Assembly (NCBI RefSeq): GCF_006438965.1
Contig: NZ_RCZM01000001.1
Location: 249,097-313,096, forward strand
Direction: 5' to 3'
Source of the DNA: Pedococcus bigeumensis
Lineage (GTDB): Bacteria > Actinomycetota > Actinomycetes > Actinomycetales > Dermatophilaceae
DNA: 64,000 nucleotides
In this document: positions 1 to 63,849 of the stretch, in pieces
Layout of the letters: every line of letters begins with the position of its first letter
Numbering within the stretch: position 1 is the first letter of the stretch
The notes under the pieces: model-generated
Database searches by the model: none
What the model saw: the letters and a program-made list of their open reading frames with translations, nothing else
What the model was told of the DNA's origin: nothing
Made by a program: the position numbers and the translations under genes

Positions 1-3000
1 AGCACGGCGTCACGCGTCGGGCCGGGCGCCGGCGCCGGCCCGGGGGTCGACATCCGGCTCGACCCGAGCTACCAGCAACCCGAGTTCCAGGGCTGGGGGA
101 CCGCCCTGACCTGGTTCGCCAACGTCACCGGCGGCTGGCCGCAGGCCAAGAAGGCCGAGCTGGCCGACGCGCTGTTCGGCGAGGACGGCCTGCAGTTCAC
201 CATCGCGCGGTACAACATCGGCGGTGGCGACAGCCCTGAGACACCCGCCTACATGCGGCCCGGCGCGGCCATACCGGGGTTCTGGAATCGGCCCGCCTCG
301 GTGGGTCCCGTGCCGGGCTCGACCCCCGACACCCCGCGCGACACCCGCGGCTGGTGGGACCCGGCGAACCCGGCGGACTGGAACTGGGATGCCGACGCCA
401 ACCAGCGCTGGTGGCTCAAGGCTGCCAAGGCGCGCGGGGCGACCACTTTTGAGGCGTTCAGCAACTCCGCGCCGTACTTCATGACCGAGAGCGGCTACGC
501 CTCCGGCAACGTGGACGGCAACAAGGACAACCTCCGGGCCGACCAGTACGACGAGTTCGCCGCCTACCTGGCCACGGTCGTCGACCACGTCGAGAAGGCC
601 GACGGCATCAACTTCGACACCGTGTCGCCGGTCAACGAGCCGAACACCAACTACTGGCATGCAAAGGGCGGCCAGGAGGGCAGCCACTGGGACCCGGCGA
701 GCCAGGGGAAGATGGCCGTCGCGACCCGCGCGGCCCTCGACGCCGTGGGCTCCGACGCGGTCGTTGCCTCGCCGGACGAGACCAACCCCGGCACGTTCGT
801 CAAGGACTGGGCCGGGTGGAACGCCGCCGCCCGAGAGGCCGTCGGTCGGCTCAACGTGCACACCTACGGCACGGACGGCCGACTCGCGCCGCGTGACCTG
901 TCCAAGCTCAGCGGCAAAGACCTGTGGATGTCGGAGGTCGACCTCGGCCCCGGCGGCATCCCGCAGAACTTCGAGGACATGCGTCCCGGCCTCGCCCTTG
1001 CCGAGCACATCAACGAGGACGTCGCCCAGCTCGAACCCCGCGCCTGGGTGACCTGGCAGTCGGTGGAGAACTACCGCAACATGCTCCCCAGCGCGGAGAA
1101 CCAGAACTGGGGCCTGATCCAGGTCGACTTCCTCACCGACACACCCGGTGCCGAGCCGATCCGCAAGAACAAGAAGTACTGGACCATGGCGCAGTACTCG
1201 CGCTTCATCAAGCCCGGCGACCACGTGATCCACACCGACAACGCCGACACCGTTGCCGCGATCCGTCCCGGCGACTCCAGCGCCACGGTCGTGTACACCA
1301 ACGACTCCGACCAGGCCGTGCCGGTGCGCGTCGACCTGGGCGGGTTCGCCCAGGCACGAAACGGGATGGCGCAGACCGTCTCCACCACGGCCGCCCACAA
1401 CCTCGCCAAGGGCCGCCCGGCGCAGGTCCGCGACGGCGTCCTCACCGCGATGGTCGAACCGGGCTCGGTCACGACCTTCTCCCTCGATGGCGTCTCCGGG
1501 GTCGACCCGGCGGCAGCCCTGCACGCCTCCACGGCCGACAGCCTCGTCGTCAACCAGAACAGCGGCAAGGCCCTCGCCCTCGCGGCCGACGGCACCTCCC
1601 TCGTCCAGCGGACGCCCAGCTCTACCGACCCCGCCCAGCGCTGGCGGATCAGCAAGGCCACCGACGGCTGGACGAACCGCGAGCAGTACACCCTGGTCAA
1701 CACGGCCACCGGCAAGGAGCTGACCACCACCTCCTCCGGTGCCCTGCGCGCCATACCGTCCGCGGCCTCGCCCGGTGACCGCTGGACCCTCTCGGTCACC
1801 CCGGACGGCCGCACCACCCTCCTGAGCGGCACGACGGAGTCCGTCCTCGACGTCGGTGGCCAGTCCACGGCCGACGGTGCGTCGGTGGGGCTCTGGACCC
1901 CGACAGCGGGCACCAACCAGCAGTGGTTCGTCCGCGGGGCCGACGTCACCCGCGTCGCTGCAGACCCGGTGCTCACCTCGCCGGGCACGGCGCCGGTGCT
2001 TCCGGACTCCGTGGCCGTGACGTACGGGGACGGGCGGACCGAGTCGCGCGCCGTCACGTGGGCGCCGGTGCCCAAGGCTGCCTACTCGAACTCCGGACGG
2101 TTCAGCGTCACCGGTGTGGTGGCGGGGCTCACCGAACGCGCCACGGCAACGGTGTTCGTCTCGGCGGTGACCGGCACGTCGGTGCCCCCGGTCAAGACCG
2201 CCGTGGGCGTCCTGCCCACACTGCCGGCCACGGTGACCGGAAGGCTCGCCATCGGTGGCACGCTGCCGCTCGACGTGGTGTGGGACGCGGTGTCGGCCTC
2301 GTCGGTCGCGGCGCCGGGGAAGTTCTCGGTCCGCGGGGTGCTGCCCGCCACGGGTGACACGACGACCGTGCTCGTCCAGGTCAACCCGCCGGCGCCGGTG
2401 AACCTCGCGCTCAACACGAGCGGTGCCGCCTTCCCGAAGGCAACAGCGACGTTCACCGGTCAGTACGACAGCACCGCGGCCGTCCTCGACGGGGTGGTCT
2501 CCTCCCGGCGCTGGACGAACTGGGACCCGAACACCTGGCGCCCCGCCGACACGCTGACGGTGGACCTCGGATCCGCCAGGACGGTCTCCTCGGTGCGGCT
2601 CGACTTCTTCGACGACCAGGGCGGCACGCGTCCGCCGGCCACCGCTGACCTGCAGCGACAGGACCCGGCGACCAGCGAGTGGGTCTCACTGACCGGCGGG
2701 CCCACGGCCGTCGCGGACGGCCAGGTGGTGCTCCAGAGGGCGTATGCCGGACAGCTCCAGCGGGTGCGGGTCGTCATGACCGCCCGTCCCGGGACCTGCA
2801 TCGCCGTCGCGGAGTTCTCGGTCTTCGGGCCGGGGGCCTCGACGGTCCCGTCCCGGGGCACCGATGCCACCCTGGATTCGCTCTCGGTGGGCGGGAAGCC
2901 TGTCGCGGGCTTCGAACCGGCCACGCTGGCGTACGCGGTGGACGTCGCGGGTGACGAGGTTCCGTTGGTCTCCGCCGTGGCCAGCGACCCCTTCGCTACG

Positions 3001-3102
3001 GTGACAGTGACCGCCCCGAAGACTCTCCCCGGCGATGCCCTCGTGGTCGTCACCGCGGAGGACACCTCTGCGACCTCCACCTACCGTGTCGCCCTCAGCT
3101 GA
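1..3102 (+). CDS. GH30-type secreted glycoside hydrolase, multi-modular (5' end outside window)
   Basis: The reading frame is open from base 1, so the N-terminus and any signal peptide lie upstream; 1033 residues are visible. The first ~410 residues look like a GH30 (beta-1,6-galactanase-like) barrel: FQGWGTALTWFANVTGGWP near residue 29, the acid/base glutamate in VNEPN (E213) and a candidate nucleophile in LWMSEVDLG (E312). Next come a ricin-type beta-trefoil (~510-648), two group-4 bacterial Ig-like repeats (~650-718, ~722-796), an F5/8-type C discoidin carbohydrate-binding domain (~800-945) and a cadherin-like beta-sandwich (~953-1033). It probably degrades plant or microbial polysaccharide outside the cell. 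The substrate is inferred from the family only. The next gene is a ROK regulator, a common pairing for sugar-responsive hydrolases. A long open frame on the opposite strand is a codon-bias shadow. Confidence 0.85.
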   Translation, partial: STASRVGPGAGAGPGVDIRLDPSYQQPEFQGWGTALTWFANVTGGWPQAKKAELADALFGEDGLQFTIARYNIGGGDSPETPAYMRPGAAIPGFWNRPASVGPVPGSTPDTPRDTRGWWDPANPADWNWDADANQRWWLKAAKARGATTFEAFSNSAPYFMTESGYASGNVDGNKDNLRADQYDEFAAYLATVVDHVEKADGINFDTVSPVNEPNTNYWHAKGGQEGSHWDPASQGKMAVATRAALDAVGSDAVVASPDETNPGTFVKDWAGWNAAAREAVGRLNVHTYGTDGRLAPRDLSKLSGKDLWMSEVDLGPGGIPQNFEDMRPGLALAEHINEDVAQLEPRAWVTWQSVENYRNMLPSAENQNWGLIQVDFLTDTPGAEPIRKNKKYWTMAQYSRFIKPGDHVIHTDNADTVAAIRPGDSSATVVYTNDSDQAVPVRVDLGGFAQARNGMAQTVSTTAAHNLAKGRPAQVRDGVLTAMVEPGSVTTFSLDGVSGVDPAAALHASTADSLVVNQNSGKALALAADGTSLVQRTPSSTDPAQRWRISKATDGWTNREQYTLVNTATGKELTTTSSGALRAIPSAASPGDRWTLSVTPDGRTTLLSGTTESVLDVGGQSTADGASVGLWTPTAGTNQQWFVRGADVTRVAADPVLTSPGTAPVLPDSVAVTYGDGRTESRAVTWAPVPKAAYSNSGRFSVTGVVAGLTERATATVFVSAVTGTSVPPVKTAVGVLPTLPATVTGRLAIGGTLPLDVVWDAVSASSVAAPGKFSVRGVLPATGDTTTVLVQVNPPAPVNLALNTSGAAFPKATATFTGQYDSTAAVLDGVVSSRRWTNWDPNTWRPADTLTVDLGSARTVSSVRLDFFDDQGGTRPPATADLQRQDPATSEWVSLTGGPTAVADGQVVLQRAYAGQLQRVRVVMTARPGTCIAVAEFSVFGPGASTVPSRGTDATLDSLSVGGKPVAGFEPATLAYAVDVAGDEVPLVSAVASDPFATVTVTAPKTLPGDALVVVTAEDTSATSTYRVALS

Positions 3103-6258: not shown

Positions 6259-7551
6259 TCAGAGCAGTCCCTGCCGCTTGAGCATGAGGTAGTGGTCCGC
6301 CAGCCGGACGGGTAGCACCTCCGGTGGCTCGTCGAGCACGTCCACCCCGAGGCTCGCCAGCGCGGCGGCAGTGCGTCGCCGCAGGGAGATCGTCCGCTCG
6401 GCTGCCGCGGCGTCATACACGTCGGCGACGGTGTCGCGGGCACTGCGCATCCGGGCGACCGCCGGATCGGCCACCGACGCGACCACGACGCGGTGGTGCG
6501 CGCTGAGCGCCGGCAGCACGGGGAGCAGGCCCTGCTCGATGGCGGAGGACTCCAGCGGGGTGAGCAGCACGACCAGGGCTCGCTGGGTGCCCAGCCGGCT
6601 GATCTCGGTGGCCAGCAGTCCCCAGTCGGCTTCGAGCAGCCGGGACTCGATCGGTGCGAGGGCGCTGATGGTGTCGTGGAGCAGCTTGGCGCGGTCGGTT
6701 CCGCCGACCCTGGCCAGCACCAACCGGTCTCCGGCGAGCACTTGCACACGGTCGCGCGCGTGCCCGGCCAGGGCGGTGAGCAGGAGGGCTGCATCCATGG
6801 CCGCGTCAAGCCGCGGCGCGTCGTCCACGCGACCGGCCGAGGTCCGCGAGGTGTCGACGACGATGACGATCCGCCGGTGCTGCTCGGGTTGCCAGGTGCG
6901 GACGACCAGGTGCTGGCGCCGGGCCGTGGCGCGCCAGTCGATGCTCCGGACGTCGTCGCCGTCGACGTACTCGCGCAGGCTGTCGAACTCGGTGCCCTGC
7001 CCGCGGGTGCGCAGCGCGGCCCGGCCGTCCAGCTGCCGCAGCACGGCGAGCCGGCTCGGCAGGTGCTTGCGCGCCGGGAACGGGTGGAGCGTCCGCAACC
7101 GCCCAGGCACCTCGAACGAGCGTTGTCTCGCAGCGAGACCGAGCGGCCCCGTGGAGCGGACGGTGACCCGGTGCGCGGCGCGGTCGCCGCGGCGGGTGGG
7201 CGTCAGCGTGGTCGTCACCCGGGTGCGCTCCCCGGCCGCGACGGCGAGGGTATGCCGGGTTGTTGCGGCCCCGGCCGACGGTGGCCACGCGTCGCGGATC
7301 GCCCCGCGCAGCCGACGCCCTCCGGTGTTGGTGACCAGGATCGAGGTCGAGGTCTGCTCGCCCAGGCGGACCTGTGGCGGTTCTTCGCGCACGAGGGTGA
7401 GCGAGCGGGGTGAGCAGGCGAGGAGGACGTCGAGGCCGACGAGCATCAGGATGACGACCCACCACCACCGGACCGTGCTGCCGTGCGGCCACAGGACAAC
7501 CGGCACCAGCCCGAGCAGGGCCAGCGCGACGGCGCGGTAGGTCAGGGTCAT
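6259..7551 (-). CDS. DUF58 (VWA-like) protein of the MoxR operon
   Basis: Start ATG 7551 overlaps the MoxR stop (TGATG), giving 430 residues. An N-terminal hydrophobic hairpin (~8-45) is followed by a beta-rich region and the DUF58 core LREYVDGDDVRSIDWRATAR near residue 235. A VWA-like domain follows, with the MIDAS-type DTSRT (IVVDTSRTSAG). DUF58 proteins are thought to act with MoxR AAA+ ATPases as chaperones or metal-insertion factors for envelope proteins. That function is family-level inference. Confidence 0.88.
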   Translation of the reverse strand: MTLTYRAVALALLGLVPVVLWPHGSTVRWWWVVILMLVGLDVLLACSPRSLTLVREEPPQVRLGEQTSTSILVTNTGGRRLRGAIRDAWPPSAGAATTRHTLAVAAGERTRVTTTLTPTRRGDRAAHRVTVRSTGPLGLAARQRSFEVPGRLRTLHPFPARKHLPSRLAVLRQLDGRAALRTRGQGTEFDSLREYVDGDDVRSIDWRATARRQHLVVRTWQPEQHRRIVIVVDTSRTSAGRVDDAPRLDAAMDAALLLTALAGHARDRVQVLAGDRLVLARVGGTDRAKLLHDTISALAPIESRLLEADWGLLATEISRLGTQRALVVLLTPLESSAIEQGLLPVLPALSAHHRVVVASVADPAVARMRSARDTVADVYDAAAAERTISLRRRTAAALASLGVDVLDEPPEVLPVRLADHYLMLKRQGLL

Positions 7552-8651: not shown

Positions 8652-9886
8652 GTGCGGCGGACCCTCTCCTCGAGATCGGTCAGTGCGGTGGCAAGGGTGT
8701 GCAGTTCGGCATCGGTGGTGGGAGGTGGCCCGGCGAGCAGCGCCGCGACCTGTGCCGGCGGCATACCGGAGGCGGCAGCCGCAGCAGCCTGGACGGCCTC
8801 CGCGGCCTGGGGTGGCAGGGCGAGGCGTCGGGCCAGCCGCTCGGTGCTGCCGAGGCGCAGGATCGCCGCTGCGCGGCCGCGGTCGCGGGCCTGTCGGTAG
8901 ATCCGGCCGCGGCTCTCGGTGGTCTCGACCGCGCGCACGACGACTGGCAGCGGCTCGGTGACCAGCGCGCCCATCCGCCGCCCCCGGACGAAGGCGAGGA
9001 CCAGGATGGCGGTGGCGACCACGGCCGCCCCTGGAGCGAGCCACACGGGCCAGGCGCCGTCGGTCGGCGCACCGTCGAAGTTGGCCAGGTCGCCGATTCC
9101 CGGCTGGTACCAGAGCAGTCGGGGGGAGCGACCCAGTGCGCGGATGGCGAGGCCCGCGTGCGACTCCTCGTCGACCCACCGGTTGGTGAAGCCGCCCGAG
9201 ACTCCCAGCGCCACCACCTCGGGGTGGTCCGCAGCCGCGGGAACCGTCGCCATCGCCGCGCCGAAGCCGAAGGCGTTCGGCCCCGAGCCCGACTCGCGCT
9301 GGGTGTCACCGCTCGGGTCGGGCAGCGCGAAGCAGAGCGTCGCTGCCGTCCCGCTGCCGCGCTTGAGGGGAATCAGCCGCACGTCGACCAGGGCCGCGGT
9401 GTCATCGGCTCTGGTCACCGTGGACGTGCACCGCGCCGTGACCTTCACCATCGTGCCGAGCTCTCCCGACGTCAGCGGCAGGTCGAGGGCAGCAAGCTGG
9501 GTGGCCGACGGCGAGAGCAGCACGAGGCGATCGGCTCCCGCGGACACCTCACCCATGAGCTGAGCGCTGTCGTGACCGACGTAGGCCGAGTTGGCCATCA
9601 CGACCGTGGTGCCCGATCCGGGATCGGCCTCGGCGAGCGCGTCGACCGAACGCACGACCTGGACGTCGACGCCGTGGGCGCGCAGCACCTGGACGACGGC
9701 CTTGCCCCCGGTGGGGCCGGTGTCGTCGGGGTCGAGGACCTGGTCGGGAGCCGTCGTGGCCAGCGCCATGGTGACGAGGGCGCCGATGCCCACCGTCACC
9801 GCGAGCGCCCACACGCCGCGCCGCCGGATCCGCGTCGCACGGCTGCCCCGGGCATCGATGTCGGCAGCCCTCGTCGCGGTCGTCAC
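8648..9886 (-). CDS. DUF4350-domain membrane protein
   Basis: Start GTG 9886 overlaps the preceding stop (GTGA); 412 residues. A transmembrane helix (~26-48) is followed by a large extracytoplasmic domain. Its beginning, GGKAVVQVLRAHGVDVQVV, is the DUF4350 signature (glutamine-amidotransferase-like fold). A second helix near residue 275 (WPVWLAPGAAVVATAILVL) is followed by an Arg- and Ala-rich cytoplasmic tail. This topology matches the DUF4350 members found in actinobacterial MoxR clusters. The biochemical function is not known. Confidence 0.82.
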   Translation of the reverse strand: MTTATRAADIDARGSRATRIRRRGVWALAVTVGIGALVTMALATTAPDQVLDPDDTGPTGGKAVVQVLRAHGVDVQVVRSVDALAEADPGSGTTVVMANSAYVGHDSAQLMGEVSAGADRLVLLSPSATQLAALDLPLTSGELGTMVKVTARCTSTVTRADDTAALVDVRLIPLKRGSGTAATLCFALPDPSGDTQRESGSGPNAFGFGAAMATVPAAADHPEVVALGVSGGFTNRWVDEESHAGLAIRALGRSPRLLWYQPGIGDLANFDGAPTDGAWPVWLAPGAAVVATAILVLAFVRGRRMGALVTEPLPVVVRAVETTESRGRIYRQARDRGRAAAILRLGSTERLARRLALPPQAAEAVQAAAAAASGMPPAQVAALLAGPPPTTDAELHTLATALTDLEERVRRT

Positions 9887-10530: not shown

Positions 10531-11693
10531 CGACGCAGGGCTGCTCCCGGCCACTGCCGCGTCGCGTCATCCTGCGCGGCGGTGATCAGCTGCACGTCGA
10601 ACCCTTCACGCCGGATGCGCTGGTCGACATAGAGCAGGGCGTCGACACCGGCTGTGAACGGCGTCGTCAGGGCTCCGGTGATGAGGCCGGTGACTCCGGC
10701 GATCACGGACTGCCAGACGAACATGTCGGAGGGGTCACCGGTGCCGATCACGCCGAAGGTGCCGATGATCGACAGGGGCACCGTCAGGATCTGGGCGGCG
10801 ATCCCGACGATGATGCCGGTGAGGATCCGGATCCCGAGGACCCGCCAGAACTGGCTACCCGACGTCAGTCGCCACGACCTCGCGATGCCCTGACCGACGC
10901 TTGCCTTCTCCAGCACGACAGCGACGCCGACGAAGGCCAGCCGGGTCGAGAGGAACAGGGCGAGGGCGATGGCGACCAGGGCTGCGCCCAGCGTCAGCAC
11001 GACGGCGCCGGCGATGCCGGAGTCGTTCCCACCCGTCGTGGCCGCGACGAGCGCGAGGACGGGCAGGACGAGCACTGCGGCGAGCGCGAGGGTGATGGCC
11101 AGACCGGTCACGATCGTGGCGCCGACGAGGGCGGGCAGCCGACCGCGAGTGCCCTCCCAGGTCTGGCCGGCGGTGACCTTGCGGCCCATCACGGCCTGGC
11201 TGATGACGAACGCGACGAACCCGGTCAGCAGGATCGCCGACAGGGACGTCCCGAGGGACGGCACCACGGAGCCGATGGTGCCGGCCACCGGGAAGACGTC
11301 CTCGGTCGACTCGAAGTCCAGCGACTCCTGGGAGGCGATCCAGGCGCCCAGGGCCGTCGTGGGCACCAGGAAGATCAGGGTGGTGACGAAGGCCAGTCCC
11401 ATGGTGGCGGCGACATTGCCGCGGATGGCCTTGATCACGGCGCCGTAGAGGTCGCTGAGGTTCAGCGGCCGCAACGGGATCACGCCGGGACGGAACTCCA
11501 TCGCCGGGTGCGCGTAGCCCGGGGACATGGGCGCGAAGCCCTGCCCTGGCGGCGGCCCCATCGGTGGCCCGGATTGCTGGCCGGGTTGGTGTCCGGGAGG
11601 TGCAGCAGGGTATGCCGCCTGCCCACCTGCCGGGGTGGCCACCGGTTCTGCCGGCCCACTGGTCCCAGGAGCCACCCACTGCGGGTCGGTCAT
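10527..11693 (-). CDS. Polytopic membrane protein, glycerophosphodiesterase-membrane-domain-like
   Basis: The 388-residue protein starts at ATG 11693, about 10 nt after a GAGGGGG ribosome-binding site. A Pro/Gly/Gln-rich cytoplasmic N-terminus (~1-75) precedes six or seven hydrophobic helices. PLNLSDLYGAVIKAIRGN and the late motif SWRLTSGSQFWRVLGI are characteristic of the family annotated after the membrane domain of glycerophosphoryl diester phosphodiesterase. No catalytic phosphodiesterase domain is present. It is first in the MoxR operon; a TAGGGT box about 30 bp upstream (around 11725) may be its -10. Confidence 0.75.
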   Translation of the reverse strand: MTDPQWVAPGTSGPAEPVATPAGGQAAYPAAPPGHQPGQQSGPPMGPPPGQGFAPMSPGYAHPAMEFRPGVIPLRPLNLSDLYGAVIKAIRGNVAATMGLAFVTTLIFLVPTTALGAWIASQESLDFESTEDVFPVAGTIGSVVPSLGTSLSAILLTGFVAFVISQAVMGRKVTAGQTWEGTRGRLPALVGATIVTGLAITLALAAVLVLPVLALVAATTGGNDSGIAGAVVLTLGAALVAIALALFLSTRLAFVGVAVVLEKASVGQGIARSWRLTSGSQFWRVLGIRILTGIIVGIAAQILTVPLSIIGTFGVIGTGDPSDMFVWQSVIAGVTGLITGALTTPFTAGVDALLYVDQRIRREGFDVQLITAAQDDATRQWPGAALRR

Positions 11694-11856
11694 GTGCGCA
11701 CATCCCCCTCGCTGACGTGGTGGAACCCTAACAAGCCGAGGTGCCCTCTGGGCCCCGAGCCACGAGATTCGGCGCGCGTCGCGCGGTTGGTGCGCCCGCG
11801 GCATACCCGGTCACGCCGTGGCACAGGGCGGCTGGTGTGGGCTCGCGTGGACGCGG

Positions 11857-12487: not shown

Positions 12488-13405
12488 TCAGCGGCCCTTG
12501 GGGTGCCAGACCGTCTTGGTCTCGAGGAAGGGGGTGATCCGCGACAGGTCAGGGGTGCGCGACCAGTCGGGCTCGACGGCGTCGGCGCCCTCACCGGCCG
12601 GACGGACCACGCGCTTGAGGTTCTCGGCGGCAGCGAGCTCGAGGTCGCCCCACTTGAGTCCCTCGGCGTCGGCCGCACCGGTCAGGTCGATCGCGTTGAC
12701 GTCGCGGTGCGAGGCGAGCCACGGCGCGACCTCGGCAGTGCGACCGGTGATCAGGTTGATCACCCCGCCGGGGACGTCGGAGGTGGCCAGCGCCTCGGAG
12801 AGCGTGATGGCCGGCAGCGGGCGCAGCTCACTCGTCAGGACGACGGCGGTGTTGCCGGAGCAGATCACCGGAGCGAGGACCGAGACGAGGCCGAGCAGCG
12901 AACTCCGTTGCGGCGCAAGGACAGCCACGACACCGGTCGGCTCGGGTGCCGAGATGTCGAAGTAGGGTCCGGCGACGGGGTTGAGCCCACCGAGGATCTG
13001 CGCGAGCTTGTCGGTCCACCCGGCATACCAGACCCAGCGGTCGATGGCCTGGGAGACGATGGTCTCGGCACGACGCTCGGCCACGCCCTCACTGGCGCGC
13101 ACCTCGTCGACGAACTGGGACCGACGTCCCTCCATCACCTCGGCAACGCGATAGAGCACCTGACCACGGTTGTATGCCGTGGCGCCGGCCCAGCCCGCGA
13201 ACGCGCCACGGGCGGCGACCACGGCGTCCCGGGCGTCCTTGCGTGAGCCCTGGGCGGCGTTGGCCAGGAACCTGCCGCGGCCGTCGACGACCTCGTAGGA
13301 ACGGCCCGACTCGGAGCGGGGGAACTTGCCGCCGATGTAGAGCTTGTAGGTCTTGCGCACATCGACGCGCGTGCCTGTGCCTGCGGACTGCGCCGTGGGG
13401 CTCAC
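12488..13405 (-). CDS. Half-length aldehyde dehydrogenase homologue lacking the catalytic cysteine
   Basis: GTG 13405 overlaps the stop of the full-length enzyme (GTGA) and gives 305 residues, against about 480 for the family. It aligns with the N-terminal, NAD-binding part of ALDH: KLYIGGKFPRSESG at the start, GVVAVLAPQRSSLLGLVSVL in place of the usual PWNFP region, CSGNTAVVL, and DVPGGVINLITGR. The ELGGK motif has become ELAAAEN, and the whole catalytic-Cys and oligomerisation part is absent. The frame is intact and coupled to its neighbour, so I read it as a maintained non-catalytic partner, not a decaying gene. Its role is unknown. Confidence 0.82.
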   Translation of the reverse strand: MSPTAQSAGTGTRVDVRKTYKLYIGGKFPRSESGRSYEVVDGRGRFLANAAQGSRKDARDAVVAARGAFAGWAGATAYNRGQVLYRVAEVMEGRRSQFVDEVRASEGVAERRAETIVSQAIDRWVWYAGWTDKLAQILGGLNPVAGPYFDISAPEPTGVVAVLAPQRSSLLGLVSVLAPVICSGNTAVVLTSELRPLPAITLSEALATSDVPGGVINLITGRTAEVAPWLASHRDVNAIDLTGAADAEGLKWGDLELAAAENLKRVVRPAGEGADAVEPDWSRTPDLSRITPFLETKTVWHPKGR

Positions 13406-48423: not shown

Positions 48424-50088
48424 TCATAGGGGAATGTTTCCGTGCTTCTTGGGCGGCAGGGTCTCGCGCTTGGAGCGCAGTGCCCGCAGCGCCTTGGTCA
48501 CGTTCATCCGGGTGTTGGACGGCGTGATGACGGTGTCGATGTAGCCGCGCTCGGCCGCGATGTAGGGGTTGGCGAGGGTGTCCTCGTACTCGGCGATGAA
48601 CCGGGCGCGGGTCTCGTCGACGTTCTCACCGGCTTCGGCCGCGGCTGCGAGCTGCTTGCGGTAGAGGATGTTGACCGCGCCCTGGGCACCCATCACCGCG
48701 ATCTGGGCGGTCGGCCACGCGAGGTTGATGTCGGCGCCGAGGTGCTTGGACCCCATCACGTCGTAGGCACCGCCGTACGCCTTGCGGGTGATCACGGTGA
48801 CGAGCGGGACGGTCGCCTCGGCATACGCGTAGATGAGCTTGGCGCCGCGGCGGATGATGCCGTCCCACTCCTGGTCGGTGCCGGGCAGGAATCCGGGGAC
48901 GTCGACGAAGGTCAGCACCGGCACGTTGAACGAGTCGCAGGTCCGCACGAACCGGGCAGCCTTCTCGGAGGCGTCGATGTCCAGCGTGCCGGCGAACTGC
49001 ATCGGCTGGTTGGCGACCACGCCCACCGAGCGCCCCTCGATCCGCCCGTAACCGACGATGAGGTTGGGCGCGAACAGCGGCTGCACCTCGAGGAACTCAC
49101 CGTCGTCGAGCACGTGCTCGACGACGACCTTCATGTCGTAGGGCTGGTTGGCGCTGTCCGGGATCAGGGTGTCGAGCTCGCGGTCCTCGTCGGTGACCTC
49201 CAGCGACGGCAGCTCGGCAGACTCGTCGGCGAACGACGGCGGCTCCTCGAGGTTGTTCGAGGGCAGGTAGGACAGCAGCGCCTTGACGTACTCGATGGCG
49301 TCTTCCTCGTCCGAGCCCATGTAGTGCGCGACGCCCGACTTGGTGTTGTGCGTCCGGGCTCCGCCGAGGTCCTCCATCGACACGTCCTCTCCGGTCACCG
49401 TCTTGATGACCTCGGGACCGGTGATGAACATGTGGGAGGTCTGGTCGACCATCACCGTGAAGTCGGTGACAGCAGGGGAGTAGACAGCCCCACCTGCGCA
49501 CGGCCCCATGATCAGCGAGATCTGGGGGATCACACCCGAGGCGTGCACGTTGCGGCGGAAGATCTCGCCGTAGAGCCCGAGCGAGACGACCCCTTCCTGG
49601 ATCCGGGCGCCACCGGAGTCGTTGAGCCCCACCACGGGACAGCCGACCTTCATCGCGAAGTCCATGACCTTGCAGATCTTCTCGCCGAAGACCTCGCCCA
49701 GCGAGCCGCCGAAGACGGTGAAGTCCTGCGCGAAGACCGCGACGGTGCGCCCGTCGACGGTGCCGTAGCCGGTGACCACCCCGTCACCGTACGGACGGTT
49801 GGCCTCCTGGCCGAAGGCGACCGAGCGGTGCCGGGCGTACTTGTCCATCTCGATGAACGAGCCCTCGTCGAGCAGCATCTCGAGGCGCTCGCGGGCGGTC
49901 TTCTTGCCCCGAGCGTGCTGCTTCTCGATGGCGCGCTCAGACCCGGCGTGGGCCACCTCGGCGACGCGGCGCTTGAGGTCGGCCAGCTTGCCGGCAGTGG
50001 AGTGGATGTCGATGCCCGAGTCGGGGTCGGGGACGTCGGTGCCGCCAACCGACAGCGGATCAGCGACGGAATCGGTGGTCTGCGCCAT
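48424..50088 (-). CDS. accD5: Acyl-CoA (propionyl/acetyl-CoA) carboxylase beta subunit
   Basis: This 554-residue carboxyltransferase has [46 protein letters not shown] and [19 protein letters not shown]. The pair of oxyanion-stabilising Gly-rich turns is intact. Sequence and position beside epsilon, birA and maf match mycobacterial AccD5, which carboxylates propionyl-CoA preferentially. ATG 50088 has TAGGCT 7 nt upstream; that -10 overlaps the -10 of birA on the other strand. Confidence 0.93.
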
Positions 50089-50112: not shown

Positions 50113-50895
50113 ATGCGCGAATCGCTCGACCGTGAGGCATTGCACGAGGCGTTGGTCACGCCGGGTCAGCCGTGGACAGGAGTCGACGTCCACCCGGCAC
50201 TCGGCTCCACGAACCTCGAGGCGGCGCGCCTCGCGCAGCCGTGGCGGGTGGTGGTGACCGACCACCAGCAGGCCGGACGGGGTCGGCTGGGCCGAGCCTG
50301 GGACACCCCGGCCAACACCTCGGTCACGCTGTCCGTGCTGCTGCCTGCCCCCGACCAGGGTCGCGGCTGGCTGCCGCTGGCCACCGGTCTGGCGGTTCGC
50401 GACGCCCTCGCCGAGGTCGCCGACGTGGACAGCGGGCTCAAGTGGCCGAACGACGTGCTCCTGCCGTCGGACGGCGAGCGCAAGGTCTGCGGCATCCTCT
50501 GCGAGCTGCAGCCGGCGGGGATCGTGGTCGGGCTGGGCATCAACGTCGACCAGGACCGCGACGAGCTCCCGGTCGACACCGCCACCTCGCTGCGGCTGGC
50601 CGGTGCCCCCGACGTGAGCCGGGAGCGCCTCGTCGTGGCCGTCCTCACGCACCTGGCCCGCTGGCACGGTGACCTCAGCGGGGCGGGACCGGCGCGCGCA
50701 GGCCTCCACGCGGCATACCGGAAGGCGTGCCTGACGATCGGGCGCGACGTCGAGCTCCACGTGGCCGGCGGCGACGTGCGCCGCGCCCGGGCGGTCGGCA
50801 TCGACGACGAGGGCCGACTGGTGGTCAGCAGTGCGGGCAGCGAGTATGCCGTGGCCGCCGGCGACGTGGTCCACGTGCGGTCCGCCACTGGCTAG
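50113..50895 (+). CDS. birA: Biotin-[acetyl-CoA-carboxylase] ligase
   Basis: The 260-residue BirA attaches biotin to the carrier lysine of AccA3. It has [17 protein letters not shown] with the biotinyl-AMP loop, [17 protein letters not shown] and GLGINVDQ, plus a C-terminal SH3-like domain. No N-terminal DNA-binding domain is present, so unlike E. coli BirA it cannot act as the biotin repressor. The gene is divergent from accD5. Its TAG stop forms part of the next promoter. Confidence 0.93.
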
Positions 50896-52062: not shown

Positions 52063-52850
52063 CCGCAGACCTGGTCCGCATCGAGCGCCACGGCGAGGGC
52101 GGCCACGTGGCCGAGCTCGTGCTCGACCGCCCGGAAGCCATGAACGCCGTCTCCACGGCGATGGCCCAGGCCCTGTCCAGGGCAACCACGGAGCTCGCCC
52201 AGGACCCCACCGTCCGTGCGGTCGTGGTCTCGTCGACGCACCCCAGGGCCTTCTGCGTCGGCGCCGACCTCAAGGAGCGCAACTCCTTCACCGACGACGA
52301 CCTGCGCGCCCAGCGCCCGGTGGCGCAGGCGGCATATCGAGGGGTCCTGGACCTTCCCGTGCCTGCAATCGCGGCCGTGGACGGCTTCGCGCTGGGTGGT
52401 GGCTTCGAGATCGCCCTCTCCTGCGACGTGGTCGTGTGCGGCGAGGACGCGGTCGTGGGCCTGCCCGAGGTGAGCGTCGGCGTCATCCCCGGTGGCGGCG
52501 GCACCCAGCTGCTGACCCGCCGCGTGGGCTGGTCGCGGGCTGCGCAGATGATCTTCACCGCCCAGCGGTATGCCGCCGCGGACGCGTGCCGGTTGGGCGC
52601 GGTCGACGAGGTGGTCGAGGCCGGCACCGCCCGCGCGCGGGCCCTGGAGCTGGCGGCCACCATCGCCTCCCACTCACCCGTCGGCATGCGCAACGCCAAG
52701 GCCGCCATGCGGCAGGGTTTCGACACCGATCTGGACGCCGGACTGCGCATCGAGGACCGGATGTGGGCGGCCACGGCCTTCTCCGGGGACCGCGCGGAGG
52801 GGGTCGCGGCGTTCAACGAGAAACGCCGTCCTGACTGGCCTGGTCGCTGA
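52059..52850 (+). CDS. Enoyl-CoA hydratase/isomerase
   Basis: The 263-residue crotonase-fold protein has the oxyanion-hole segment AFCVGADLKER, then AAVDGFALGGGFEIALSCD and VGLPEVSVGVIPGGGGTQLL. Catalytic glutamates are at the FEIALS-downstream loop and LPEVS, as in hydratases. It probably hydrates 2-enoyl-CoA in beta-oxidation or branched-chain breakdown. The ATGA overlap couples it to the adenylate cyclase, an unusual partner. Confidence 0.9.
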   Translation: MTADLVRIERHGEGGHVAELVLDRPEAMNAVSTAMAQALSRATTELAQDPTVRAVVVSSTHPRAFCVGADLKERNSFTDDDLRAQRPVAQAAYRGVLDLPVPAIAAVDGFALGGGFEIALSCDVVVCGEDAVVGLPEVSVGVIPGGGGTQLLTRRVGWSRAAQMIFTAQRYAAADACRLGAVDEVVEAGTARARALELAATIASHSPVGMRNAKAAMRQGFDTDLDAGLRIEDRMWAATAFSGDRAEGVAAFNEKRRPDWPGR

Positions 52851-55204: not shown

Positions 55205-56413
55205 GTGACGTCACCGCAGCGCGCCCCCGGAGGTTTCCCGGTCGTCGGCATCATCGGCGGGGGGCAGCTGGCGCGGATGTGCGCCGCTCCTGCGGCCGAG
55301 CTGGCGATCACCCTCAGCGTGCTCGCCGAGGCGCCGGATGCGGCTGCCGCACAGGTCATCCCGTCCGCGCCCGTCGGTGACCATGACGACGTCGCTGCGG
55401 TCCTCGCCTTCGCCCGCCAGTGCGACGTCGTCACCTTCGACCATGAACACGTCCCTGCGAACGTGCTGGATGCCCTTGTCGCAACAGGCGTCCCGCTGCA
55501 CCCAACTCCGGAGGCGCTGCGGTTCGCTCAAGACAAGCTGGCCATGCGTGAGCGGCTCACGGAGATCGGCGTCGCGTGTCCCGCGTGGGCGCGAGCCCGG
55601 ACACCCGCAGATGTCGACGCGTTCGCTGCGCAGGTCGGCTGGCCGATCGTTGCGAAGACACCGCGAGGTGGCTACGACGGCAAGGGCGTGCGCGTGATCG
55701 ACTCGGCGGCGGAGGTGGACGACTGGCTGGCCCTGGTCGCGGAACAGGAGGGAACGGAGGGCCTGCTCTCCGACGGGATCCTGGTGGAGGAGAAGGTGGA
55801 CTTCGTCCGCGAGCTCGCCGTCCTCATCGCGCGCAGTCCTTCCAACCAGGCCGCAGCGTGGCCGGTCGTCGAGACCGTCCAGACCGACAGCATCTGCACC
55901 GAGGTGCTCGCGCCCGCCCCCGACCTCGACCCGAGCCTCGCAGCAGTGGCCACCGAGGCGGGGCTGCGGATCGCCGAGAAACTGGGCGTGACAGGGGTTT
56001 TCGCCGTCGAGATGTTCGAGGTGAGGGATGTGCAGACCGGCGCCCCGGCATACGTCGTCAACGAGCTGGCCATGCGCCCGCACAACAGCGGGCACTGGTC
56101 GATGGACGGAGCGGTGACCGGACAGTTCGAGCAGCACCTGCGCGCGGTGCTCGACCTGCCCCTCGGCGCGCCCACCCCGCGCGAGCCGTTCACGGTGATG
56201 GCCAACGTCCTCGGGCGCGACTACCCGGAGCTCTACCCGGCCTACCGCCACATCATGGCGAGGGACCCGGAGCTGAAGGTGCACCTCTATGGCAAGGGCG
56301 TCCGCCCGGGCCGCAAGATCGGCCACGTCAACGTCTCCGGCGCCGACCTGGCGCAGCTGCGTGAGCGCGCCAGCCACGCGGCCGACTACCTCGCAGGAGT
56401 GATCACCGAATGA
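55205..56413 (+). CDS. purK: N5-carboxyaminoimidazole ribonucleotide synthase
   Basis: This 402-residue ATP-grasp enzyme carboxylates aminoimidazole ribonucleotide with bicarbonate and ATP in de novo purine synthesis. It has [39 protein letters not shown], and [13 protein letters not shown]. It overlaps purE by 4 bp (ATGA), and both enzymes act in sequence. No purine riboswitch or PurR-like site is visible, consistent with a leaderless transcript. Confidence 0.95.
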
Positions 56414-56964
56414 GCGCCACGACACCCACCACGCCCCCTGGAACCGAGACGGCGACGCCGTTGGTCGGGCTGGTCATGGGCAGCGACAGCGACTGGCCGG
56501 TGATGGCGCTGGCAGCCCAGGCGCTCGAGGAGTTCGGCATCGCGTACGAGGCCGACGTCGTCTCGGCACACCGGATGCCCGAGGAGATGATCGCCTACGG
56601 GCAGAACGCCGCTGGGCGTGGACTGCGGGTCGTCATCGCGGGAGCGGGCGGTGCCGCACACCTGCCCGGCATGCTCGCGTCGGTGACGCCGTTGCCGGTC
56701 ATCGGGGTGCCGGTGCCGCTGAAGTACCTCGACGGCATGGACTCGTTGCTCTCGATCGTGCAGATGCCTGCCGGTGTGCCGGTCGCCACCGTGTCGATCG
56801 GTGGGGCGCGCAACGCGGGCCTGCTCGCCGCGCGCATCCTGGCCGCCGGCGACGGGGAGTATGCCGCGGGGCTGCGGGAGCGGATGAGCGCCTTCCAGGC
56901 GGACCTGCGCGACCAGGCCCACGCCAAGGGCGCGGCCCTGCGCGAGCGCCGCGCCGGGTCCTAG
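56410..56964 (+). CDS. purE: N5-carboxyaminoimidazole ribonucleotide mutase
   Basis: The 184-residue class I PurE moves the carboxyl group of N5-CAIR to C4. It has [23 protein letters not shown] with the catalytic His, and [11 protein letters not shown]. The N-terminal ~18 residues are a Thr/Pro-rich extension. The stop codon TAG overlaps the stop of the convergent CoA-binding gene in a CTAG palindrome. Confidence 0.95.
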
Positions 56965-58533: not shown

Positions 58534-58618
58534 CAGTCCGCTGGGCTCTCTGCGCCGCTGCCCACGTGGGTGTCGGGTGACACACGACGCAGCTGGGACG
58601 CCGCGGCATACCAGCGGG

Positions 58619-58630: not shown

Positions 58631-59797
58631 GTGAGCACTGGTAACCGCGACTTCGACCTGTTCAAGATCTCCGAGGACCACGAGGCCCTCCGTGGGGCGG
58701 TGCGTGCCGTCGCCGAGGACAAGATCGCCCCGTATGCCGCGGCCGTGGACGAGGAGGCGCGCTACCCGCAGGAGGCGCACGACGCCCTGGTGGCCTCGGA
58801 CTTCTTCGCCCCGCACATCGCCGAGGAGTACGGCGGTGTGGGCGCCGACGCGCTCGCCACCTGCATCGTGATCGAGGAGGTTGCCCGGGTCGACGCGTCC
58901 GCCTCGCTCATCCCGGCGGTCAACAAGCTCGGCACGATGCCGCTGATCATCGCGGCGAACGACGACGTCCTGAAGCGCTACCTCACGCCGGTCGCCGCCG
59001 GGAAGTCGACGTTCTCCTACGGCCTGTCCGAGCGCGAGGCGGGCTCTGACACGGCCGCCATGAAGACCCGTGCCAAGCGCGACGGTGACGACTGGATCGT
59101 CAACGGGCAGAAGTCCTGGATCACCAACGCCGGCGTCTCCGACTACTACACGGTGCTCGCGGTCACCGACCCCGACGGCAAGCGCGGCAACAACGTCACG
59201 GCCTTCGTCCTGGAGAAGTCCGACGAGGGCTTCACCTTCGGTGAGAAGGAGCGCAAGCTCGGCATCAAGGGTTCCCCGACCCGCGAGCTGCACTTCGACA
59301 ACGTCCGCATCCCCGGCGACCGGATCGTCGGCGCGGAGGGCGAGGGCCTCAAGATCGCGCTCGCGACGCTCGACCACACCCGCGTCACGATCGGTGCCCA
59401 GGCCGTCGGGATCGCCCAGGGCGCACTGGACTTCGCCGTCTCCTACGTCAAGGAGCGCAAGCAGTTCGGCAAGAACATCGCCGAGTTCCAGGGCATCCAG
59501 TTCATGCTCGCCGACATGGCGATGGCAGTCGAGGCAGCTCGCCAGATGGTCTACGTCGCGGCCGCCAAGTCCGAGCGCGGCGACAAGGACCTGCCCTTCT
59601 TCGGTGCGGCCGCCAAGTGCTACGCCTCGGACGTGGCCATGCAGGTCACGACCGATGCCGTCCAGCTGCTCGGTGGCGCGGGCTACGTCCGCGACTTCCC
59701 GGTCGAGCGGATGATGCGCGACGCCAAGATCACCCAGATCTACGAGGGCACCAACCAGATCCAGCGCGTCGTGATGGCCCGGCAGATCCTGAAGTAG
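58631..59797 (+). CDS. Acyl-CoA dehydrogenase, FadE25-like
   Basis: The 388-residue flavoprotein has FSYGLSEREAGSDTAAM, WIVNGQKSWITNAG, RKQFGKNIAEFQGIQF and the catalytic Glu in IYEGTNQIQR. Position after purE/purK and before a LytR-CpsA-Psr gene corresponds to fadE25 (Rv3274c) in M. tuberculosis, from memory. It probably acts on short-chain or branched acyl-CoA in beta-oxidation. The stop lies 10 bp from the convergent LCP gene. Confidence 0.93.
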   Translation: MSTGNRDFDLFKISEDHEALRGAVRAVAEDKIAPYAAAVDEEARYPQEAHDALVASDFFAPHIAEEYGGVGADALATCIVIEEVARVDASASLIPAVNKLGTMPLIIAANDDVLKRYLTPVAAGKSTFSYGLSEREAGSDTAAMKTRAKRDGDDWIVNGQKSWITNAGVSDYYTVLAVTDPDGKRGNNVTAFVLEKSDEGFTFGEKERKLGIKGSPTRELHFDNVRIPGDRIVGAEGEGLKIALATLDHTRVTIGAQAVGIAQGALDFAVSYVKERKQFGKNIAEFQGIQFMLADMAMAVEAARQMVYVAAAKSERGDKDLPFFGAAAKCYASDVAMQVTTDAVQLLGGAGYVRDFPVERMMRDAKITQIYEGTNQIQRVVMARQILK

Positions 59798-59807
59798 CCG
59801 TCACCGC

Positions 59808-61261: not shown

Positions 61262-62800
61262 ATGAGGGCCACCCACGTCGCGCCGACCGGCGCTGAGACT
61301 GGTGTGTACCTGTCCCAGCGGAGCAATGCCGCCCTGGTGGACGGGGACGCCCTCACGCCGCGGATGCGGCGCCGACGCGCCTTCACCCTCGTGCTGCTCA
61401 CCCTGTTGCTGCCCGGCAGCGCCCAGCTCGTGGCCGGCCGGCGCGGCCTCGGACGGTTCGCCCTCCGGGTCTGGTTCAGCCTCGCCGCCCTGGTCGTGCT
61501 CATGGGGCTGGTGTTCCTCCTCAGCCAGTCGCTCGCCATCGGGGTGCTCGGGCGCGGCTGGGTGCTCACGGCCCTCCAGTGGCTGCTCGGCGGCTTCGCC
61601 GTGCTGTGGGCGGTCCTCTTCGTCGATGCGTGGCGGCTCGGACGCCCGGCCACCCTGCGGCTGGCCACCCGTCGCTGGCTGACCGGCGTGACCGCGGCGC
61701 TGCTCGTCGTCACCAGCGGCGGCCTCGTGTATGCCGCGAGCTCCGTGGGTGCCGGACGCGACGCCATGAACGCCCTCTTCCAGGGGAACGAGGCGGTGGG
61801 GGCGGTCAACGGGCGCTACAACATCCTGTTGCTGGGGGCCGACTCCGGGCGCGACCGGGTGGGCACCCGCCCGGACAGCATCCAGCTGGTCAGCATCGAT
61901 GCCGAGTCCGGTAGCGCGGTGACCTTCGGCTTCTCCCGGGACACCGAGAACATCAACTTCCGACCCGGCTCCACGATGGCGCGCCTCATGCCTGAGGGCT
62001 GGAACTGTGGCGATGAGTGCCTGCTCAACGGGCTGTACACCTGGGCGGAGAACAACGCCGCGAAGTTCCCGGCAGGGACGCAGAGCCCAGGCGTGCTCGC
62101 CACCCGCGAGGCCGTCGAGGCGCTGAGCGGCCTGGACATCCAGTACTACGTGATGGTCGACCTCCAGGGCTTCAAGAAGATGGTCGATGCGGTGGGCGGT
62201 CTCGACATCAACGTCAAGTACCGCACCCCGATCGGGGGTGGCACCTCGCGGATCACCGGCTGGATCGAGACCGGGCCCCAGCACCTCGATGGCTACCACG
62301 CGCTCTGGTACGCCCGGTCCCGTCAGGGCTCCACGAACTACGAGCGGATGGCCCGGCAGCGCTGCGTGATGACCGCGATGTCCGAGCAGCTCGACCCGCA
62401 GACGGTGCTGCTGCGCTTCCAGAAGATCGCCGGCGCCACCACCGGGCTGATCAGGACCGACCTGCCGCAGTCCGAGCTCGGCCGGTTCGCCGACCTGGCG
62501 ATGAAGACGCGAACCCACAAGATCCGGGGCGTCAACTTCGTGCCGCCGCTGATCAAGCCGTGGGACTACGACGCCGACGTGATCACCTCGACGGTCCAGA
62601 GCACCATCAAGGCGTCCGAGAAGGCGGCCGAGGCGACGGCGAAGGGCCCGGCCAAGGGCGCTTCGTCAGGCACGTCCTCGGCCACGACGGCGAAGCCGAA
62701 GGCCAAGCCAGGATCCGGGACGGCAGTGCTCGACCCGGCCAAGGCTGCAGGCAACGCGGCGGAGGGCGACCTGTCCTCCGTATGCTCTGCATCCTCATGA
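61262..62800 (+). CDS. LytR-CpsA-Psr (LCP) family protein with several membrane helices
   Basis: The 512-residue protein has four hydrophobic segments (about 43-62, 70-92, 101-120, 137-157), unlike the usual single-span LCP. The LCP domain then has YNILLLGADSGRDRVGTRPDSI, here YNILLLGADSGRD and GTRPDSI, then GFSRDTENI, HLDGYHALWYARSRQGSTNYERM cut as HALWYARSRQ and NYERM. A Lys/Ala/Thr-rich tail ends the protein. It overlaps the glycosyltransferase gene (ATGA). Cell-wall glycopolymer ligation is inferred from the family. Confidence 0.9.
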   Translation: MRATHVAPTGAETGVYLSQRSNAALVDGDALTPRMRRRRAFTLVLLTLLLPGSAQLVAGRRGLGRFALRVWFSLAALVVLMGLVFLLSQSLAIGVLGRGWVLTALQWLLGGFAVLWAVLFVDAWRLGRPATLRLATRRWLTGVTAALLVVTSGGLVYAASSVGAGRDAMNALFQGNEAVGAVNGRYNILLLGADSGRDRVGTRPDSIQLVSIDAESGSAVTFGFSRDTENINFRPGSTMARLMPEGWNCGDECLLNGLYTWAENNAAKFPAGTQSPGVLATREAVEALSGLDIQYYVMVDLQGFKKMVDAVGGLDINVKYRTPIGGGTSRITGWIETGPQHLDGYHALWYARSRQGSTNYERMARQRCVMTAMSEQLDPQTVLLRFQKIAGATTGLIRTDLPQSELGRFADLAMKTRTHKIRGVNFVPPLIKPWDYDADVITSTVQSTIKASEKAAEATAKGPAKGASSGTSSATTAKPKAKPGSGTAVLDPAKAAGNAAEGDLSSVCSASS

Positions 62801-63849
62801 CCAGCACGCCACCAGAACCGCACCTCGTCCGTTCCCCCAGGGTCGGCGTCGTCATGCCCATCCTCAACGAGCAGCGCCACCTCGAGGAGGCGGTGGCCGC
62901 GGTGCTCGAGCAGGACTACCCGGGCGACGTCGAGCTGGTGCTGGCCCTCGGCCCGAGCCGCGACGACACCGACGCCATCGCCGAGCGGATCTGCGCTGGC
63001 GACCCGCGGGTCAGCTCCGTGCCCAACCCCTCCGGTCGCACCCCCGAGGGCCTCAACGCGGCCCTGGCCCGGCTGTCCACGGACACCGAGGTCGTCGTCC
63101 GGGTGGACGGGCATGGCCTCCTCGATCCCGACTACATCAGCACCGCCTGTGCCCTGCTCGAGGAGACCGGGGCGGCCAACGTCGGCGGTCTGATGGACGC
63201 TCGCGGGGTGACCAGCTTCGAACGGGCCGTCGCCGCGGCGATGACCTCGCGGCTCGGGGTCGGCGCAGCGGCCTTCCACACCGGGGGAGAGGCCGGCCCG
63301 GCCGACACGGTCTACCTCGGGGTCTTCAGCAAGCCCTGGCTCGACCGGATGGGCGGGTACGACCCCCGGTTCGTGCGCGCCCAGGACTGGGAGCTCAACC
63401 ACCGGATCCGGGAGGCCGGCGGCCTGGTCTGGTTCTCCCCGGGACTGAGGGTGACCTATCGCCCCCGTCCGACCCTGCGCGCGCTGGCCCGCCAGTACCG
63501 TGACTACGGCCGCTGGCGCCGCGCGGTGTCCCGCACCCACGCGGGCACCCTCAACCTGCGCTACCTCGCCCCGCCCGCGGCCCTCGTGGGCGTCGTCGTG
63601 GGTCTCGCGGGGGGCTTCGTCTGGTGGCCCCTGTGGCTGGGCCCCGCGGCATACCTCGCGATCACGACGGTGGGCGGCCTCACGGTGACCGACGAGGACC
63701 TTCGCCCCGCCGACCGGCTCTGGATGCCGCTCGTGCTGCCCACCATGCACCTGTGCTGGGGCTGGGGCTTCATCACCAGTCGCGTCCGCGTCGACGGCGA
63801 GACCGACTCGCGGCCGGCCGCCGAAGCCGGGTCTCAGCCCGCGGGCTGA
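62797..63849 (+). CDS. ExoA-like family 2 glycosyltransferase
   Basis: The 350-residue enzyme has the N-terminal GT-A motif VGVVMPILNEQRHLEEAV, LALGPSRDDTD, VVRVDGHGLLDPDY as the DxD-like metal site, and RAQDWELNHRIR with the acceptor-loop acidic residue. Two or three C-terminal helices (~265-340) anchor it. Succinoglycan ExoA is the closest named relative that I recognise. It is coupled to the LCP gene, suggesting one glycopolymer pathway. Its last codons overlap the convergent gene in a palindrome. Confidence 0.88.
   Translation: MTSTPPEPHLVRSPRVGVVMPILNEQRHLEEAVAAVLEQDYPGDVELVLALGPSRDDTDAIAERICAGDPRVSSVPNPSGRTPEGLNAALARLSTDTEVVVRVDGHGLLDPDYISTACALLEETGAANVGGLMDARGVTSFERAVAAAMTSRLGVGAAAFHTGGEAGPADTVYLGVFSKPWLDRMGGYDPRFVRAQDWELNHRIREAGGLVWFSPGLRVTYRPRPTLRALARQYRDYGRWRRAVSRTHAGTLNLRYLAPPAALVGVVVGLAGGFVWWPLWLGPAAYLAITTVGGLTVTDEDLRPADRLWMPLVLPTMHLCWGWGFITSRVRVDGETDSRPAAEAGSQPAG

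Follow-up and report, generated by a model that had tools for sequence, protein, structure and literature searches.

A strand-specifically spaced octamer iterated through many genomes of one actinobacterial family

We focus here on the octamer 5'-GTATGCCG-3', a non-palindromic word (it differs from its own complement) that is iterated through a window of 64,000 nt of the actinobacterium Pedococcus bigeumensis (positions 249097 to 313096 of contig C1, NZ_RCZM01000001.1) and through the 4.22-Mb genome, G000, to which the window belongs. The word is a strong, family-specific and actively maintained genomic signal. Our main new result concerns its spacing: within a strand, copies are mutually exclusive over about 1–2 kb, whereas copies on opposite strands ignore each other. 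The computations set out below show it to be an actively maintained, exact and directional site, whose benefit is obtained per strand and saturates at about 1–2 kb. Judged from sequence, this pattern suits a Chi-like signal read by a recombination enzyme that translocates along a strand, or else an uptake word that is strand-selective.

The over-representation of the octamer is confirmed as a real observation. A preliminary description of the window, made from its letters, had counted 43 exact copies in the 64 kb, 20 on the + strand and 23 on the − strand, and had placed this number far above chance; our counts reproduce these figures exactly (range 2742 to 63654), against a mean of 1.0 and a maximum of 5 copies in dinucleotide shuffles of the window and 0.9–2.2 copies expected under Markov models of orders 0–3. 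No other 8-mer of the window is as strongly over-represented at order 3. Genome-wide, G000 contains 2551 copies (1264 forward and 1287 reverse), and the reversed word, that is the word read backward, occurs 74 times (35 + 39). The Markov check that the description had proposed was applied to 464 kb of G000 (the window and 20 further stretches of its contig, which make up two uninterrupted blocks of 240 and 224 kb), and the word lies far outside expectation, with 290 copies versus 6.8–13.5 (orders 1–3). Unless stated otherwise, counts given below for G000 refer to these 464 kb.

Within the two blocks, the gaps between same-strand copies have a coefficient of variation (CV) of 0.62, compared with 0.99 ± 0.06 under the null, and only 6 of 286 such gaps are shorter than 500 bp, where 42 are expected. 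Opposite-strand copies, on the other hand, are independent of each other at all distances, save for an excess below 50 bp (13 pairs versus 4.5) that consists mostly of hairpins. The orientation of neighbouring copies alternates in 195 of 288 cases, the null being 145 ± 8. Among 548 synonymously reachable sites (12 Val-Cys-Arg sites were excluded), the octamer is present at 110 of the 161 that have no same-strand copy within 2 kb on either side and at just 9 of the 93 whose nearest same-strand copy lies within 500 bp. Carriers and non-carriers differ sharply in how far away the nearest same-strand copy lies (rank test, p = 2e-22), while the corresponding distance on the opposite strand does not separate them (p = 0.68). 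The logistic coefficients are −1.38 and −1.29 for upstream and downstream same-strand neighbours, as opposed to −0.2 for the opposite strand, which controls internally for the composition, expression and gene content of the region. The lowest same-strand ratio below 1 kb among 59 control 8-mers of similar abundance is 0.64; set against these, the octamer has 23 same-strand pairs where 91 are expected. Motif-rich genomes other than G000, together with named loci, supply a further 19 stretches (two each from four of the genomes); pooled, their 353 copies have a CV of 0.63, with 8 same-strand pairs below 250 bp versus 34 expected and 53 opposite-strand pairs versus 33; the shortness of these stretches lowers the observed long-range counts. 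Same-strand exclusion combined with opposite-strand indifference implies that the word is directional in its action and works on each strand separately. A reader that binds duplex DNA blind to orientation is thus not expected, while one that moves along, or imports, a single strand would fit.

The two orientations are also closely balanced. Per 40 kb they are near equal, the largest difference being 16 versus 11, and strand totals across the 89 family genomes rich in the word (see below) differ less than binomial sampling would give (chi-square 53.4, 89 df, lower-tail p = 0.001). There is thus no sign of replication polarity, as judged on the 464 kb of one contig and on genome totals, without a located origin.

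Recognition appears to be confined to the exact word. Together, the 24 one-mismatch forms occur 315 times versus 314 expected, although single forms vary, a few being 2–4 fold up and others down; the highest, GTAGGCCG, has 50 copies versus 13 (order 1) or 26 (order 2). The one-base variants that the preliminary description had listed are indeed present but are rare in the window, with 2, 1 and 1 copies where 0.6, 0.2 and 0.5 are expected. Graded recognition should produce a halo of near matches, and overall there is none; all-or-none recognition at mutation-selection balance, we infer, predicts no such halo.

The word is also conserved beyond its surroundings, a comparison that the preliminary description had suggested. 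In orthologous DNA of seven congeners (79–86% identity, with frame-matched flanking 8-mers as controls), window sites are kept exactly in 20 of 33 alignable cases in G137, 23 of 34 in G098, 14 of 23 in G032 and 18 of 21 in G143, that is 61–86% in these four genomes versus 24–33% for flanking 8-mers. With 13 of 32 sites exact (control 25%), G115 stands in between, and G072, with 1192 copies, lies outside the window alignment. The word has decayed in the other two aligned congeners, where exact sites number only 2 of 27 in G124 and 4 of 31 in G131 (controls 23% and 16%). The commonest one-step change in these two is T to C at position 4 (12 of 20 cases), which in the main frame turns TAT into TAC. 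Over 459 kb, G124 retains 87 copies, and the decayed form, GTACGCCG, is in excess (93 versus 25 expected); the word occupies 46 of 181 Tyr-Ala sites, compared with 127 of 204 in G000, and the surviving copies are randomly spaced (CV 1.06). The scarcity of exact sites, the excess of GTACGCCG and the random spacing of the survivors suggest that the maintaining force has lapsed in G124. The same part of that genome (C5:1-459000; L478-L497, L181-L183) also holds 15 copies of GTATGCAG versus 2.7 expected, a 5.5-fold excess.

Coding copies arise mostly through synonymous codon choice. Our own script, whose calls were not curated, finds 414 genes in the 464 kb (91% coding). It places 224 copies in coding DNA, where within-gene shuffling of synonymous codons leaves 18.9 ± 4.3, and 62 between genes, where 1.2 are expected, in agreement with the earlier statement that codon or dipeptide preference is insufficient. 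Most coding copies lie in Tyr-Ala or Ala-Tyr frames. At sites of the type [codon NNG]-Tyr-Ala-[ADEGV], the word is used in 127 of 204 cases (62%), as against 4.9 (2.4%) expected. It is also used at 57 of 164 [APST]-Ala-Tyr sites, 14 of 43 [CGRS]-Met-Pro sites, 9 of 20 Arg-His-Thr sites and 1 of 12 Val-Cys-Arg sites, as well as at 16 of 117 Gly-Ile sites, which need the rare ATA codon, these being 16 of all 31 ATA codons. The earlier impression that copies supply most TAT codons does not hold overall, their share being 45% (127 of 282). Intergenic copies carry a longer, soft consensus, GGTATGCCGCGTGG, and the octamer is densest between convergent genes. Inverted pairs of the word form intergenic hairpins in G000, for example at C1 loci L010:12934-12962 and L018:18112-18152, and long hairpin arms, GGTATGCCGGGTGG..CCACCCGGCATACC, stand shortly 3' of gene ends and have the appearance of terminators.

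The distribution of the word follows one family, and within it is patchy. Among 149 genomes from 53 genera of Dermatophilaceae/Intrasporangiaceae, at least 280 copies are present in 89 (33 genera), 140–279 in 7 and fewer in 53. The ratio of the word to its reversed form is 2.3–50 (median 9.9) in the 89 rich genomes and 0.6–5.0 (median 2.1) in the 53 poor ones, a wide range that reflects how common the reversed control itself is in some genomes. Single genera can be mixed: in genus g26, G069 has 19 copies and its congeners 1062 and 3681, and in genus g35, G125 has 37 and its congeners 1251–1660. In 273 genomes from other families of the order (of 297 returned), the maximum is 177 copies (G358, where the reversed word has 135), and the ratio is about 4 or lower wherever counts are not tiny. 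Homologous named loci include Knoellia, Tetrasphaera, Pedococcus, Phycicoccus, Humibacillus and Ornithinimicrobium. NCBI places Knoellia in Intrasporangiaceae, and the family of these genera is, we assume, the one called Dermatophilaceae in GTDB. The octamer was counted in 22 of 80 named loci, more of them serving only as background for the dialect words considered below. There are 10 and 15 copies in two Knoellia loci, 17 in a Tetrasphaera metagenome-assembled genome, 11 in Pedococcus and 8 in Ornithinimicrobium, and none in the Phycicoccus sonneratiae locus, the Humibacillus locus or any of 15 loci from other families. The open reading frame used to name these relatives (window 13174-14688, + strand) is probably antisense to a conserved gene on the − strand (13402-14850), both frames being open over most of their length; the loci found through it are nonetheless homologous. 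Viral contigs with the 14-mer GGTATGCCGCGTGG (at least 120 stretches, and at least 120 for the reversed control) show no further excess of the octamer (0.032/kb versus 0.029/kb). We also considered whether motif-poor genera use dialect words, GGATGCCG in G026 and GTACGCCG in G040, and dropped the idea because a cross-genome baseline puts both words at about 2.2–2.6x their Markov expectation in the other genomes too, and because Microbacterium and Leifsonia have GGATGCCG just as often. In the first 20 kb of another motif-poor genome (G038, C1:1-20000, L122), GAAGGGGG occurs 23 times versus 1.3 expected.

That the octamer is a functional iterated word, as the preliminary description held, is thus supported by genome counts, shuffling and conservation. 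It shares parts of Chi, of uptake words and of HIP1, and it fails a tested defining feature of each. Chi (5'-GCTGGTGG-3', read by RecBCD in E. coli) is an exact, non-palindromic octamer that acts directionally, per strand and over kilobases. Our word is likewise an exact, non-palindromic octamer present on the scale of thousands of copies, directional, counted per strand and effective over a kilobase range. We tentatively favour, at a little below even odds, a Chi-like polar self-signal in recombination that would be read by a protein other than RecBCD. With similar reserve, we think that it may be a genomic signal of an undescribed kind: an exact word of per-strand benefit, with a 1–2 kb exclusion and balanced strands, placed on most unhindered reachable sites and read by an actinobacterial enzyme that tells self from foreign strand by strand. 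Such an enzyme would meet 5'-GTATGCCG-3' while travelling along, or importing, one strand, and the encounter would change its behaviour in the manner of Chi, so that DNA destruction stops, a recombinase is loaded or the strand is accepted as self. One copy per strand every few kb would be needed, and a second copy close by would bring little gain. Since DNA ends or incoming strands would arrive from both sides, rather than mainly from replication forks, each orientation would be required to the same extent throughout the genome. The reader itself would be a family trait that has been lost repeatedly, after which copies would drift away, mostly via synonymous change.

A number of observations weigh against a Chi-like signal. 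Chi in E. coli K-12 is strand-polar and lacks same-strand exclusion (69 versus 21 by strand in 400 kb, same-strand CV 1.04), whereas the octamer is balanced and shows exclusion. Frequent loss within the family would be surprising for a housekeeping repair signal, and the strong enrichment, the intergenic inverted pairs and the family-limited patchiness look more like uptake words. Furthermore, no gene family that we tested tracks the motif, and this includes recC, AdnAB-like proteins, comEC, secretion ATPases, three methyltransferase families and Tad minor pilins. For this search, motif count and genus guided the choice of 57 genomes from the family's 149: 33 motif-rich genomes with at least 300 copies, among them the decaying G124 and G131, and 24 with fewer. 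The recC model has no match in G000 and exceeds the cut-off in 7 of the 33 motif-rich genomes versus 14 of the 24 motif-poor or intermediate ones (Fisher p = 0.006, without phylogenetic correction). RecBCD is ruled out as the general reader, since recC is missing from 26 of the 33 motif-rich genomes. PDDEXK_1 proteins are present in all 57 genomes, and two of them, which from this domain, their size and their pairing we take to be AdnA/AdnB-like, form a pair in each of 20 genomes compared residue by residue (11 motif-rich, 7 motif-poor, 2 intermediate), whether motif-rich or not. An AdnAB-like reader of altered specificity was considered and rejected: only 2 of 277 and 2 of 338 columns invariant in motif-rich genomes are changed in at least 3 of the 7 motif-poor ones, no more than in control genes. 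Of 414 genes in the 464 kb, 142 have no close match in the 459 kb of G124 (a comparison that covers about 11% of the genome, with matches elsewhere in G124 possible, and that is therefore biased as a screen for genes), and 20 of these, when scanned against Pfam, gave 10 with matches and no obvious reader. As a separate observation, recC is patchy in the family, and many recC-less genomes have a third PDDEXK_1 match of ~300 aa, about 8–20 kb from the AdnAB-like pair; among the matches listed, recC and this third match look mutually exclusive, G143 excepted.

The preliminary description had named an uptake or repair signal among its candidates. An uptake or recombination/repair signal remains the best class, although only in a strand-specific form, as neither the published uptake form nor the E. 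coli form of Chi suits the data. The Chi-like signal therefore has its closest competitor in a strand-selective word for natural transformation, in which only the strand bearing the octamer would be imported or protected and a copy per strand would be needed every few kb; we consider this rather unlikely, though it is to be taken seriously. Soft flanks and patchy loss are features of the uptake signal sequences (USS) of Pasteurellaceae and the DNA uptake sequences (DUS) of Neisseriaceae, and the octamer resembles these in the GGTATGCCGCGTGG flanks of its intergenic copies and in its loss within genera, as well as in its very strong enrichment and restriction to one family. It is also denser in widely shared DNA, with 26 copies in 31.6 kb shared with 5–6 of 6 congeners versus 9 in 20.7 kb shared with 0–2. 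USS and DUS are, like the octamer, family-specific non-palindromic words found about once per 1–2 kb with balanced strands. Inverted pairs between genes, here densest between convergent ones, have a counterpart in USS that form terminator hairpins at gene ends (PMC7811141), and PMC1939737 mentions that about 10% of uptake sequences occur as inverted repeats and that Karlin noted their even spacing, which the author of that paper judged not very even. The same paper, on the other hand, reports that uptake in Haemophilus is orientation-independent and that some mismatched forms are over-represented (PMC1939737), whereas the octamer has strand-specific spacing and no overall mismatch halo. An uptake word would also be unusual for a monoderm actinobacterium. 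Among the genes for uptake that were searched (comEC and its region, T2SSE and the Tad minor pilins), none clearly separates the groups. The comEC gene is found in 56 of the 57 genomes, which counts in favour of an uptake word, but it is kept in motif-less genomes, and its single absence is from the motif-rich G034; it is present regardless of the motif and was thus rejected as a tracking gene. Across the com region of the 20 genomes, which barely distinguishes motif-rich from motif-poor, ComEC has the highest count of separating columns by the criterion applied to the AdnAB-like pair (3 of 130), most neighbours having 0–1. Secretion ATPases (T2SSE) do not follow the motif among the matches listed for the 57 genomes. 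The Tad minor pilins TadE/TadG seemed promising at first since they are lacking in G124, and were rejected because they are also lacking in the motif-rich G137 and G098 and are present in the decaying G131 and the motif-less G001. The Flp/Tad pilus locus itself (G000 C1:382327-390693, L024; L498-L509) is syntenic across the genus and gains and loses minor pilins: by our own gene calls, TadE/TadG-like genes are present in G000, G131 and G032 and absent from G124, G137, G098, G115 and G072, and in G143 there is a TadE-like gene with a mere fragment at the place of TadG. The names comEA and holA, and those of Tad parts beyond the PF00437 and PF13400 matches, are presumed assignments.

Other explanations are far less probable than either a Chi-like signal or an uptake word. 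A strand mark, in which an asymmetric methyltransferase or modification would label one strand and a strand-discriminating repair system would need a mark per strand within about 1–2 kb, predicts just the strand-specific, symmetric and distance-saturating spacing that is observed, yet we hold it to be quite improbable. It would be an asymmetric version of what has been proposed for HIP1 (GCGATCGC, cyanobacteria), which is similarly an octamer repeated many times in one clade, some members of which have few copies, and for which PMC4390886 sets out a saturation model at about one site in every 1000 nt; according to the same source, HIP1 is palindromic and tied to methyltransferases. The octamer, in contrast, is not palindromic, and MutS_I was found in 0 of the 57 family genomes and in 11 of 14 control genomes, which speaks against a HIP1-like word, another earlier candidate, in a form that works with methyl-directed repair. 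As to a methylation motif, the MmeI_Mtase, N6_N4_Mtase and Eco57I families do not track the octamer in the 57 genomes, the second of them being without a match in G000; PF02384 and PF00145 were not searched, nor were other methyltransferase families. A site for a nucleoid-organising or segregation protein, including guidance of the kind given by KOPS (FtsK-orienting polar sequences), is slightly less credible still. Even spacing and genome-wide spread would suit it, but an architectural site on double-stranded DNA predicts no same-strand exclusion with opposite-strand indifference, and the nucleoid-protein site of the preliminary description thus finds no support. KOPS and architecture-imparting octamers are read directionally by DNA motors and are skewed along replichores. 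The latter, architecture-imparting sequences (AIMS), are 8-bp words. The octamer shares their length but is near balance per 40 kb, and no strand polarity or replichore skew of the kind that marks segregation guides is seen in the 464 kb or in genome totals. Finally, a by-product of codon-pair, dipeptide or mutational bias, without any reader, could draw on the predominance of Tyr-Ala and Ala-Tyr frames among coding copies. We regard it as already refuted and give it next to no credence, given the shuffling result, the intergenic excess, the near absence of the word from sister genera and other sampled families, its decay inside a genus and its spacing.

Few signals in bacterial genomes are as strong as Chi, uptake sequences and HIP1, and the reasons for their persistence are debated. 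In the literature searched, which held few subscription journals or preprints, we found no report of GTATGCCG, and none that describes a Chi or uptake word for the family. The letters of the octamer match 3142 papers, of which the 20 listed are by title on other subjects, probably because the string occurs in sequencing adapters. Within the literature searched, a Chi-like or uptake role, if true, would make it the first such word in Actinobacteria. The family offers a natural experiment, with the word in 89 genomes and absent from 53 of 149, and with losses inside single genera. Furthermore, any mechanism has to accommodate the quantitative rule that copies affect each other on the same strand and over about 2 kb, and the identity of the reader would show how these actinobacteria recognise their own DNA in recombination or uptake. 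The octamer could also be put to use as a tag in the transformation of strains that are otherwise difficult to engineer.

The 43 exact copies in the window are numbered here in order of position. That some are intergenic, as had been described, is upheld, although by our gene calls they are nine of 43 rather than eight: on the + strand copies 4 (11610..11617), 18 (32148..32155), 25 (39997..40004) and 33 (48247..48254), and on the − strand copies 5 (11799..11806), 16 (29278..29285), 17 (31263..31270), 29 (43687..43694) and 40 (58604..58611). Conservation can be given site by site for some of the others. Copy 6 (13021..13028, −) and copy 7 (13172..13179, +) are each kept exactly in 3 of 6 aligned congeners; copies 10 (20344..20351, +), 11 (20640..20647, −) and 19 (34908..34915, +) in 4 of 7; copy 26 (41248..41255, +) in 5 of 7; and copy 28 (42144..42151, −) in 0 of 7. 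Copy 15 (28057..28064, +) is exact also in G137, G098, G115, G032 and G143 and altered in G124 and G131, while copy 30 (45417..45424, −), kept exactly in 5 of 7, has become GTACGCCG in G124 and G131. Further exact matches on the + strand are copies 1 (2742..2749), 2 (7250..7257), 12 (24100..24107), 21 (36411..36418), 23 (36867..36874), 32 (46445..46452), 36 (50844..50851), 37 (52568..52575), 39 (56859..56866), 41 (58732..58739) and 42 (61729..61736). Those on the − strand are copies 3 (8759..8766), 8 (17091..17098), 9 (19842..19849), 13 (25003..25010), 14 (25558..25565), 20 (35312..35319), 22 (36710..36717), 24 (37466..37473), 27 (41389..41396), 31 (46063..46070), 34 (48819..48826), 35 (50711..50718), 38 (56046..56053) and 43 (63647..63654). 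The window opens with a gene for a large protein (1-3102, + strand) with GH30-like, ricin-type lectin, Big_4 and F5/8 type C domains.

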